DNA of 54,608 nt from Deltaproteobacteria bacterium (GTDB lineage Bacteria > Bdellovibrionota > Bdellovibrionia > Bdellovibrionales > JAMPXM01). The translations under genes were made by a program, and so were the position numbers. The notes beneath the pieces are model-generated. The model was not told where the DNA came from. It searched no databases and saw only the letters and a program-made list of their open reading frames with translations. The stretch is taken from positions 1-54,608 of the forward strand of contig JAFLCB010000017.1 of NCBI GenBank assembly GCA_017302795.1, in the 5' to 3' direction. This document shows, piece after piece, positions 27,454 to 31,591 of this stretch (position 1 is the first letter of the stretch; every line of letters begins with the position of its first letter).

Positions 27454-28176
27454 ATGCAAAAGCTTTTTTCTTCTCTCAAAGCTCTGATCGCCCTTGCCTC
27501 CCTTGTGACTGCTTCCGCAGCGTGGAGCTCCGCTCAACCTCAGTTCATTCCAGAAACGCTTGGGGATGCGCAAAAACGAATTCGCATCGATCATGCCCAA
27601 GAGCTTTTGGGTCGCCATTATTCTCGTAGCCAAGTAAAATATGGCGAAAACGTTAAAAAAATAAACTCTCAAATTTATCGATGGACCAAAGATCGACTAC
27701 CTAAAACCTATCGCCCCCAATACGCGAAAATCGCACAAACTATTATCGACGAAAGTCTGAAGCATGGATTTGACCCGGTGTTTTTACTTTCTGTCATTCA
27801 AAGCGAGAGTCACTTCAATCCAGACGCCAAGGGGCTGCACGGGGAAATCGGATTGATGCAAATTCTGCCGCCGACCGGCAAGTGGATGGCAGAAAAGTCT
27901 GGCCAGAAATGGATCGGCCCAAAAACATTGAAAGATAACGTCGCTAATATCCGTCTCGGTGCCGCCTACTTTGCGTTTCTAAGAGACCGCTTTGATATGC
28001 ACGCGCGCTTGTACATTGCTGCCTACAATATGGGTCAACACAATGTTGACTCCGCTCTTGAGAAAAAGATTTGGCCGAAGGACTATCCAGGCGTCGTCAT
28101 GAAAAATTACATAGAGTTCTATAATGCCTTGGAAGATTCGAAACGCGCACCTACTTCAATTCAAGCACGTCGCTAG
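27454..28176 (+). CDS. Lytic transglycosylase, SLT-type, exported
   Basis: A 240-residue protein with a signal peptide (residues 1-27) and an SLT (Slt70-like) domain over about 100-215. Key motifs are SVIQSESHFNP with the catalytic Glu, GEIGLMQILP, and YIAAYNMG, the set expected of goose-lysozyme-like transglycosylases. It cleaves peptidoglycan glycan strands to 1,6-anhydro ends in the periplasm, for growth, recycling or passage of envelope machines. It is a single gene, overlapping the convergent ABC fusion by 4 bases. Confidence 0.92.
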   Translation: MQKLFSSLKALIALASLVTASAAWSSAQPQFIPETLGDAQKRIRIDHAQELLGRHYSRSQVKYGENVKKINSQIYRWTKDRLPKTYRPQYAKIAQTIIDESLKHGFDPVFLLSVIQSESHFNPDAKGLHGEIGLMQILPPTGKWMAEKSGQKWIGPKTLKDNVANIRLGAAYFAFLRDRFDMHARLYIAAYNMGQHNVDSALEKKIWPKDYPGVVMKNYIEFYNALEDSKRAPTSIQARR

Positions 28177-30449
28177 TGAGACATCGCTCGATCCAAACGA
28201 CGCGATAGTTTCACAAACGGTAAGCCGATCAGCAAGTACACCGCGGCGGTCATCACTCCGATACCAAGATAGTTAAAATTCGCTGACGCCAATTGCCCGT
28301 AAATGGAGGTCAGTTCAACCATCGTGATGACGGAAACCAAACTTGAATCCTTTAACAAGGCAATGAAATCATTGGTCGACGGCGGTAGAGCGACACGCAT
28401 CGCCTGCGGGAAAACGACATATCGCAAACTTTGCCATTGTGACAGACCAAGCGCTCTAGCCGATTCGAGCTGCGCTTTAGGAACTGACAAAATACCGGCT
28501 CGATAGTTTTCAGCCTCGCAAGCACCATAGTTCAGACCAAGACCAATCACTGCTGCCCAAAAAGGTTCAAGCCGAATGCCCAGATGCGGCAGCCCGTAGA
28601 ACAATAGAAAAAGCTGAATTAAGAGGGGCGTTCCACGAAACAATTCAATATATATCGTGGTCGCAGAGCGAAGCAGTGTGCCTCCATAAAGCCGCGAAAC
28701 AACCGCGATGAGCCCGACGGCCATCGCGACGAACATGGATGTTACAGAAACTTGTAGTGTCGTCAGAGCGCCACGCGCCAGGAAGGGTAAATAGGAAAGG
28801 TAACGTTCAAGTCTTTGCGTCCAACCGCTCTCGCTGGCCTGCGCGTTTCGAAAACTTTGATAAGCGACTGCGTCCTTCAATGGAAATGAAGAGTAAGACA
28901 AGCCTAACTGTTTAGCCGTTTCTTCGTTCCACAATCCCCAACGTTGAAAGATCTCGGTCAAAATCCCTTCCGTCGCGAGCTCATTCAACGCTCGATCAAT
29001 TTCTCCTGCGAGTTTTGCGGAGTCCGATCTTAGGGCGATTCCGTATTTTATTTGACCAAAGCTTTCTTTGACATGCTTGAGCTTAAGATTTTCCGTCGCA
29101 TAGTATAGCGCGATAGGTTGATCCAAAAAAACGGCGTCCAGCCGCCCAATCGACAGATCGTGATAGGCGTGAATTTCGTCGCTATAAGAAACCACTTCTA
29201 GCGGAATTTCCAAGGACGAAAGCATGCGGCTGGCCAGCGAGGCAGCCAGTGTTCCCACCCGTTTCCCGGAAACGTCCTCAAGCTTTTCGATTCCCGTTTC
29301 ACTCTCTCTTACTGTCAGCGCCTGACTAGTAACATAGTAAGGTTTCGAAAAGTGAACCGTGCGATTTCTCTCTTCGGTAATTTCAATTCCATTAATAACT
29401 AGATCATAATCAGCGCGGCGAAGCCCTTCGATCAATCCATCCCAATTATTCTGTACAAAGATGGGCTTTTTCCCAAGTCGCCCCGCTAGAGCTTCTATGA
29501 GTTCAACTTCAAAGCCGATCAATCGTTCTGGATTTGACGGATCCCGAAATACGAAAGGCGCACCGCTCTCTGCGTCCGCCGCCCACCTTAGCTCGTTGCC
29601 GGACGCAAAAGCTGGAGAACAACATAGCAATGCAAGAACAGTCGACAGACCGGCAATTAACACGCTCATGAATTTGGTGAAGGCACCCAAATAGCTACGC
29701 GTTTCACCATTTTGAGGATTAGAAAATATCTGCTCAGGCGGCCCCTCTTCGATCAGCTTTCCATTGTTCATGAATAGAACTCGATCAGAAGCCTCGCGCG
29801 CAAACCGGATCTCATGAGTTACTACGATCTGGGTCAACCCATCAGACTTGAGATCTCTCATGACTCCTAGCACTTCTTGAACCAAACCGGGATCAAGCGC
29901 GCTTGTAGGTTCGTCATAGAGTAATATTTCGGGTTTCAGAAGCATTGCCCGCGCAATCGCGGCGCGCTGTTGTTCTCCTCCCGAAAGCTCCCGCGGACGT
30001 CGAAGTGTTTTTTTCTCCAAACCTACCTTTTCTAAAAGTTTTAAAGCCTGCACGCGGGTCTCATCAGCTTCTTTGGTTCCGGGCTTCAACCGAAGGACAA
30101 CTCTCGGGGCAAGCAGCATGTTTTCTAAAAGGTTTAAATGGGGAAACAGGTTAAACGATTGAAAGACCATACCGACTTTTTTTCGAATCAGTTGGGCGGT
30201 GTCTTCAAACGCACGCTTGCCTATTTCTTGGGAGCTTTTCAAATCTAACTTTTCCGACGCTAATTTGTAGGAAATCCGACCCTCGTCAAAATCCTCGAGG
30301 CCGTTGAGGCACCGGAGAAAGGTCGATTTGCCACAACCAGACGGGCCAATCAATGTGATAAGCTCACCCGCTTTAATCGACACTTTGAACGCGTCTAGTA
30401 CCCGCTGCTGCTGAAAGCACTTCGTAAGCTGGTCTGTTTCCAGAATCAC
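28173..30449 (-). CDS. Single-polypeptide polar amino-acid ABC transporter: ATPase, binding protein and permease fused
   Basis: A 758-residue fusion. Residues 1-255 form the ATPase: Walker A GPSGCGKST (35-43), signature LSGGEQQR, Walker B ILLYDEP, and TALDP-like SALDP. Residues 261-285 look like the signal peptide of a binding protein, now an internal membrane helix. Residues 288-515 are a family-3 solute-binding domain (IGFEVELIEALAGRLGKK, then DYDLVINGIEITEER). Residues 555-758 are a HisM/GlnP-type permease with GLGLNYGACEAENYRAGI. Binding-protein/permease fusions are known, but adding the ATPase is unusual. Its ATG overlaps the lpxD stop (ATGA). Confidence 0.92.
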   Translation of the reverse strand: MILETDQLTKCFQQQRVLDAFKVSIKAGELITLIGPSGCGKSTFLRCLNGLEDFDEGRISYKLASEKLDLKSSQEIGKRAFEDTAQLIRKKVGMVFQSFNLFPHLNLLENMLLAPRVVLRLKPGTKEADETRVQALKLLEKVGLEKKTLRRPRELSGGEQQRAAIARAMLLKPEILLYDEPTSALDPGLVQEVLGVMRDLKSDGLTQIVVTHEIRFAREASDRVLFMNNGKLIEEGPPEQIFSNPQNGETRSYLGAFTKFMSVLIAGLSTVLALLCCSPAFASGNELRWAADAESGAPFVFRDPSNPERLIGFEVELIEALAGRLGKKPIFVQNNWDGLIEGLRRADYDLVINGIEITEERNRTVHFSKPYYVTSQALTVRESETGIEKLEDVSGKRVGTLAASLASRMLSSLEIPLEVVSYSDEIHAYHDLSIGRLDAVFLDQPIALYYATENLKLKHVKESFGQIKYGIALRSDSAKLAGEIDRALNELATEGILTEIFQRWGLWNEETAKQLGLSYSSFPLKDAVAYQSFRNAQASESGWTQRLERYLSYLPFLARGALTTLQVSVTSMFVAMAVGLIAVVSRLYGGTLLRSATTIYIELFRGTPLLIQLFLLFYGLPHLGIRLEPFWAAVIGLGLNYGACEAENYRAGILSVPKAQLESARALGLSQWQSLRYVVFPQAMRVALPPSTNDFIALLKDSSLVSVITMVELTSIYGQLASANFNYLGIGVMTAAVYLLIGLPFVKLSRRLDRAMSH

Positions 30450-31591
30450 GTTGGTACTTTTTCCTCTAGCTCGGAAATGCGCCGCCGAAGATCGACAGCG
30501 TTTCTCAGCACAGCGGTGTTCTTCATATAATCAGACAGCGGCTGCACCGGAAGGCCTGCGTAGGCGCCCGGAACATCAATATTCTTGGTCACGCCTGCTC
30601 GATGTACGAGGACCACATCATCGCAAACATTCATATGATCTAATACTCCTGTTTGGCCGCTGGTCATCACCCGGTTTCCAATCTTGGTTGAACCAGCCAC
30701 ACACAACATTGCCGTCAACAAGCAGTCCTCGCCAATTTGAACCCCGTGGGCAATGTGACAGAGGTTATCGATTTTCGTACCAGCGCCGATTCTTGTGATG
30801 TGGTAGGCCGCTCGATCAACGCAGCAACCTGCCCCTATTCGAACGCGATCTTCAAGAACCACGATCCCAGTTTGGGGGATCGCGTGACTTTTTCGTTTTG
30901 CGTCTTGTGCGTAACCAAAACCTGCGGAACCGATCACTGTACCTGCTTCTATCACCACATCGTCCCCAAGGACACAGCCATAGCCGATGACGGTTCCAGG
31001 ATGCAAAACACTGTTTTCGCCAATCCAAACATCATTTTCCACAACGGCACCCGCCATGATTCTTACACCGCGAGAAATTATCGTACCTGCTCCTACCACA
31101 GCCCTGGGCTCAACAATCACCGATTTATCAAGAATCGCAGTCTCGTGGATGACGGCCGTCGGGTGAACTCCGACCCAGCCACTTCGAGAAAAATCTCGAG
31201 ACAAAAAGGTCTGTTTAAAAAAAGCATGAGCCAAGGGAACAGCGTGAACCGTTAAAACATTAGCGCCAGCAAGGACTTTAAATGCGTCCGCCAATTTCGC
31301 ACTTGTCACAACCATGCCGGGCTTGACCCGTTCGGACACACGTTGCATGACCAAACTAACCACGTCCGGCTTATCCACGAAAATCATGTCTCCGTGCTCG
31401 AAGTGCTCGACAGCCGAAATTCTGCCAATCACGGCATTGCGGTCGCCAGTGAAGTCGACAATCAACTCTTGTCCACCTAGCTGTTTTCCGGTTGCGACCT
31501 TGATTTCGTTAATCACTGTCTCAATTTTCAAATCTATTTTCGGTTGCAATGAAGTCGGACGTTGATAAATATCTTCAGCGCTAAATTTCAT
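30446..31591 (-). CDS. lpxD: UDP-3-O-acylglucosamine N-acyltransferase
   Basis: A 381-residue LpxD. Residues 1-110 form the uridine-binding domain. Residues 118-345 carry many hexapeptide repeats of a left-handed beta-helix (for example VIHETAILDKSVIVEPRAVV). IDNLCHIAHGVQIG contains the His expected as catalytic base, and a C-terminal helix (LRRRISELEEK) supports trimer formation. The enzyme adds the second acyl chain in lipid A synthesis. lpxD normally sits with fabZ and lpxA; here it stands alone, overlapping an amino-acid transporter gene, so it may be an extra copy. Confidence 0.92.
   Translation of the reverse strand: MKFSAEDIYQRPTSLQPKIDLKIETVINEIKVATGKQLGGQELIVDFTGDRNAVIGRISAVEHFEHGDMIFVDKPDVVSLVMQRVSERVKPGMVVTSAKLADAFKVLAGANVLTVHAVPLAHAFFKQTFLSRDFSRSGWVGVHPTAVIHETAILDKSVIVEPRAVVGAGTIISRGVRIMAGAVVENDVWIGENSVLHPGTVIGYGCVLGDDVVIEAGTVIGSAGFGYAQDAKRKSHAIPQTGIVVLEDRVRIGAGCCVDRAAYHITRIGAGTKIDNLCHIAHGVQIGEDCLLTAMLCVAGSTKIGNRVMTSGQTGVLDHMNVCDDVVLVHRAGVTKNIDVPGAYAGLPVQPLSDYMKNTAVLRNAVDLRRRISELEEKVPT

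Follow-up and report, generated by a model that had tools for sequence, protein, structure and literature searches.

Introduction

In Art(QN)2 and HisQMP, the solved systems whose ATPase (NBD) and permease (TMD) are closest by sequence to the locus described here, and whose NBD is also closest by fold, the NBD, the permease and the binding protein are all separate. In NrtC and CmpC an NBD is followed in the same chain by a domain resembling solute-binding proteins, although that chain has no TM segments or permease domain, and the added, NrtA-like domain regulates nitrate/bicarbonate uptake from the cytoplasm. GlnPQ of Lactococcus lactis and other Firmicutes resembles the present locus in being a PAAT importer with its solute-binding domain (SBP) N-terminal to the permease, and with a homodimeric TMD and two NBDs; the solved binding domains of GlnP are also sequence relatives of the SBP described below. 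However, the NBD of this system, GlnQ, is a separate protein, and GlnP has two tandem binding domains (PMC8025302). A topological precedent is provided by MacB (type VII), where an N-terminal NBD, TM1, a large periplasmic domain and further TM helices follow one another in one chain (PMC5985334). MacB nevertheless has another permease fold with four TM helices, and is an efflux-pump component rather than an importer. An all-in-one type I importer was not found described in the open-access literature, which is weak evidence of absence.

Here we describe a fused importer gene in a 54,608 nucleotide stretch of DNA (the window) from a Bdellovibrio-like bacterium. Its sequence points to a genuine though modest departure from a known design, and the product is a candidate single-polypeptide amino-acid importer.

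Results and Discussion

The gene lies on the minus strand (28173–30449) as a single ORF that runs from GTG to TAG over 758 codons with no internal stops, and encodes a chain with a calculated mass of 84.1 kDa in which an NBD, a signal-anchor-like helix, an SBP_bac_3 domain and a PAAT permease follow one another. Pfam places ABC_tran at residues 19–183 (E 1.9e-33), SBP_bac_3 at 295–505 (1.6e-28) and BPD_transp_1 at 579–757 (5.8e-23), and each of the three domains separately reaches significance far beyond chance. Pfam, NCBIfam, PDB relatives and motifs assign the NBD region (residues 1–258; 29676–30449, minus strand) to the ArtP/GlnQ/HisP type, and its motifs are intact: Walker A from residue 35, the Q-loop at 95–97, LSGGE at 155–159, Walker B (ILLYDEP) at 175–181 and the H-loop at 211–213. 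The periplasmic solute-binding domain (SBP_bac_3, residues 285–510; 28920–29597, minus strand) was delimited using Pfam, alignment, PDB relatives and Foldseek. Its pocket positions are conserved, R361 in 21 of 23 alignment rows and D443 in all 23; we take these to be the equivalents of the amino-acid pocket residues R75 and D157 in GlnBP. Pfam, NCBIfam, PDB relatives and alignment likewise define the permease domain (BPD_transp_1, polar amino acid type, residues 552–757; 28179–28796, minus strand), in which an EAA-like loop at approximately 661–682 was read by eye, the strict EAA pattern having given no match.

Among PDB sequence relatives, the NBD is related to ArtP, the permease to the Art(QN)2 permease and the SBP to GlnP-type binding domains, and Foldseek is consistent with this for the NBD and the binding domain. 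The top Foldseek match is CmpBCD, with a poor overall superposition (TM-score 0.24). In NCBIfam, the N-terminal part is best matched by amino acid and ectoine ATPases (EhuA, TcyN, GlnQ, HisP, ArtP), and the C-terminal part by cystine/ectoine permeases. Each of these matches falls below the curated equivalog cut-off, which is too low to name the substrate; the cargo would be a polar amino acid. The NBD type and motifs, the SBP_bac_3 domain with its pocket Arg and Asp, the polar-amino-acid BPD_transp_1 and the position of the SBP N-terminal to the permease are all those of a PAAT-type importer of the GlnPQ class. The protein differs from GlnPQ sensu stricto in having one SBP domain instead of two in tandem and its NBD in the same frame, and from the NrtC/CmpC type in that the chain contains an SBP_bac_3 domain and a permease. 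On these features, the locus probably encodes a PAAT-type ABC importer of the GlnPQ class, formed when an ATPase gene and a downstream SBP–permease gene merged into one frame.

The same three domains occupy an uninterrupted 738-codon frame in one congener (genome G002, L009/L109; 58% identity over residues 8–754, E 1.5e-266), so that a continuous three-domain frame is common to two species. The initial annotation had read the ATPase, SBP and permease as one uninterrupted 758-residue frame, and the ORF, the three Pfam domains and this congener bear it out. Window and congener also share the gene order desaturase–DUF3750–SLT–ABC–lpxD. Their junction sequences are unlike, which makes the two genomes independent readings of a continuous frame. 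In a tree of the SBP-TMD part the two fused proteins are sisters (support 94/98), a grouping compatible with a single fusion event; one outgroup row in this tree (L166) is very long and derives from a region interrupted by a stop codon close to its beginning, so the deeper placements were not used. Among the 369 genomes of the phylum that were searched, the fused frame occurs in these two only. The remaining three congeners in the sample (88, 76 and 98% complete) carry an lpxD orthologue with no transporter beside it, and in none of them did a transporter match pass the threshold applied. Outside the phylum, no fused frame was found in either of two samples, one of 348 genomes (the phylum of a Clostridium genome) and one of 246 (the phylum of a Nocardia genome), and the matches in 349 genomes from the phylum of a Cocleimonas genome had internal stops or were SBP-TMD alone; these nulls are weak, given that scoring was confined to the best few candidates in each genome and that a positive control was absent in two of the searches. 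The sequence comparison thus points to a genuine fusion that is apparently limited to one genus of Bdellovibrio-like bacteria.

Approximately 20 relatives, belonging to other families and genera of the phylum, carry the NBD gene immediately ahead of a GlnP-type SBP-TMD gene that opens with a signal peptide. These split pairs (for example L110, L112 and L137) have homologous domains in the same order, with SBP-TMD parts that are 50–60% identical to that of the window, but they are two genes, mostly in different frames with a 4 nt ATGA overlap in which the NBD TGA overlaps the SBP-TMD ATG. From the conserved [FY]L codons at the end of the NBD to the SBP-TMD start there are 11 nt in 13 split relatives, 14 nt in one more and 18 nt in the window, thus a net gain of 7 nt that eliminated the NBD stop and brought both genes into one frame. 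The window junction keeps the ATGA, with its ATG now in the NBD frame as Met261 (29667–29669, minus strand), the codon that corresponds to the start of the separate gene in split relatives. Residues 261–284 (29598–29669, minus strand) correspond to the former signal peptide, as judged from hydropathy and from the signal peptides of split relatives, and now form an internal hydrophobic segment; 19-residue hydropathy windows span 254–284. The comparison supports an origin of this segment in the signal peptide of an SBP-TMD gene that was once separate. The initial annotation had proposed that the signal peptide became an internal membrane helix carrying the chain to the periplasm; its origin now has the split relatives behind it, while its role in carrying the chain is still a prediction.

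Other arrangements were seen among the homologues. In G348 (L134) the NBD and SBP-TMD share a frame, and with nothing but a TAA plus a short spacer between them they are a single stop codon short of an independent fusion; this locus looked fused in tabulated form and was rejected as a further fusion on account of the TAA. An acidobacterial candidate (L023) was likewise rejected, as the order is SBP-TMD then NBD and the genes are not fused. This locus (L023:2428-5171, Acidobacteria gp7) has a 667-codon SBP-TMD frame in which approximately 190 residues precede the binding domain; an NBD frame comes next and overlaps it. No adjacent NBD gene was detected for the SBP-TMD homologues of L148, L152–L158, L160–L162 and L164, mostly from genomes of family f22; the ATPase that serves them must be encoded at another site or have diverged too far.

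In a frame-transition survey of 1106 prokaryotic genomes, the largest of the clusters assigned to translational coupling were those of ABC transporter genes (PMC3711429), and subunits of heteromeric complexes are enriched in short gene overlaps (PMC10666635). Fusion therefore plausibly swaps one means of balancing subunits for another, and would substitute for stop/start translational coupling as a way to equal amounts of both parts. Together, the split and fused relatives provide a clean case of an overlapping, translationally coupled gene pair becoming one gene.

In the proposed mechanism, the ribosome would make one chain of approximately 84 kDa, the NBD of which would fold in the cytoplasm. 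The former signal peptide would then act as a signal anchor (N-in) that takes the solute-binding domain to the periplasm, and the permease helices would come next, ending inside. This topology agrees with hydropathy, and matches that of the usual PAAT permease, which has five helices and is N-out/C-in. The assembled importer would be a pair of such chains, with the NBD, the TMD and the binding domain each present twice; ligand-loaded SBP would dock on the TMD dimer, with ATP binding and hydrolysis powering alternating-access uptake, as in GlnPQ. It had been suggested that the fusion fixes the stoichiometry as a homodimer, but this adds nothing, as GlnPQ already has two of each subunit (PMC8025302). 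What the fusion alters is synthesis and tethering, not subunit count.

The tether itself is a structural puzzle. The linker from the last NBD helix to the membrane segment is approximately six residues long, and shorter in the congener. In type I importers of the MalK/OpuA type, the NBD C-terminus faces away from the membrane, so a linker of this length would need a rearranged C-terminal helix. AlphaFold2 predicts one helix (250–276) through the junction with low confidence (block pLDDT 52–70, pTM 0.54); as confidence is low there and also within parts of the NBD, the model played no part in the geometric argument. Two outcomes would fit: the last NBD helix detaches from its domain and acts as the tether, or the chain is cut. 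The initial annotation had not considered the linker, and its shortness is a point against the single-chain reading. We know of no other type I importer in which the NBD C-terminus has a membrane tether of near-zero length.

Cutting of the chain is the most serious of the alternatives that we considered. The whole chain would be made and signal peptidase I would then cut after A282, leaving a membrane-tethered NBD and a mature SBP-TMD in a conventional GlnPQ-like complex. A putative site read by eye (AFA↓SG) fits the small-X-small rule at −3/−1, the hydrophobic core is short, like those of the signal peptides of split relatives, and a similar A-L-G↓A stretch is kept in the congener. Nevertheless, long N-terminal extensions lower signal-peptidase cutting, an effect reported in yeast, not bacteria (PMC8277137), and the NBD would remain on a short tether even after the cut; we consider cleavage unlikely, though still a reading to be reckoned with. 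Less probable again is that SBP-TMD is still made separately from Met261 (a TTG in the congener), with the full-length chain as a by-product or a source of NBD. The retained ATGA, which puts Met261 exactly at the ancestral start, would allow this, as would the congener TTG codon, which precedes a K-R-hydrophobic, signal-like stretch. Yet coupled re-initiation depends on distance and requires a nearby stop (PMC10666635), and with the NBD stop deleted by the fusion none is left for termination–reinitiation. The Shine–Dalgarno pairing of Met261 is also near background and badly spaced, the best lying approximately 14 nt upstream and being equalled by 25% of gene positions; this analysis is suggestive only, as many genes in the window also lack a clear Shine–Dalgarno sequence and the start-site statistics are from the window alone. 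Moreover, the stretch just after Met261 lacks the positively charged K/R that most split relatives carry there, and the congener has no ATG at its junction. A single chain of approximately 84 kDa is favoured over internal initiation and signal-peptidase cleavage on the strength of the lost re-initiation stop, the badly spaced Shine–Dalgarno pairing and absent K/R at Met261, and the missing congener ATG.

Two further explanations question the gene itself. An assembly or sequencing error could have joined overlapping genes of truly different frames; in its favour, nearly all relatives have two genes in different frames, and the window comes from a draft genome in 39 contigs. Against this, the independent congener genome is continuous too, with a different junction sequence, and the difference from split relatives is a net gain of 7 nt in a region (conserved NBD codons to Met261) where homopolymers do not exceed three bases. 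The undetected frameshift that the initial annotation had named as grounds for abandoning its reading is judged unlikely on the same two counts, and an error of this kind is the least credible explanation of all. Scarcely more credible is a degenerating locus, in which fusion broke function and the gene is a young pseudogene. The tether geometry is awkward and the transporter is absent from three of the four sampled congeners; however, both fused copies retain all NBD motifs and the conserved binding-pocket and permease positions, and the frame is open in both despite approximately 42% mutual divergence. A functional type I importer, with ATPase, uncleaved signal anchor, SBP and permease in one polypeptide that works as a homodimer and with the NBD C-terminus on a membrane tether of near-zero length, is the best explanation and may well be correct, with about even chances that it holds in every part. 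Physiologically it would be one more amino-acid importer. A natural single-subunit importer would be useful for structural work, and for asking whether the C-terminus of a type I NBD tolerates a membrane tether.

The GTG start of the ABC gene overlaps the stop of lpxD by 4 nt (GTGA), and with AGAGGA upstream this is a sensible start. When the fused protein was searched against its own genome, neither the SBP nor the TMD found a second match, and no further NBD exceeded 40% identity. The upstream lpxD (30446–31591, minus strand), identified from sequence, NCBIfam and genome comparison, is kept as a neighbour in the congener G002. Two lpxD matches are present in the window genome and in all four sampled congeners, the second being approximately 34–40% identical, and an ABC gene follows the closer lpxD with a 4 nt overlap only in the window and G002. 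On the other side, a convergent lytic transglycosylase (SLT) gene (27454–28176, plus strand), identified from sequence, Pfam and genome comparison, is also kept in G002. The two convergent genes meet at a CTAG palindrome (28173–28176) that gives a TAG stop to both.
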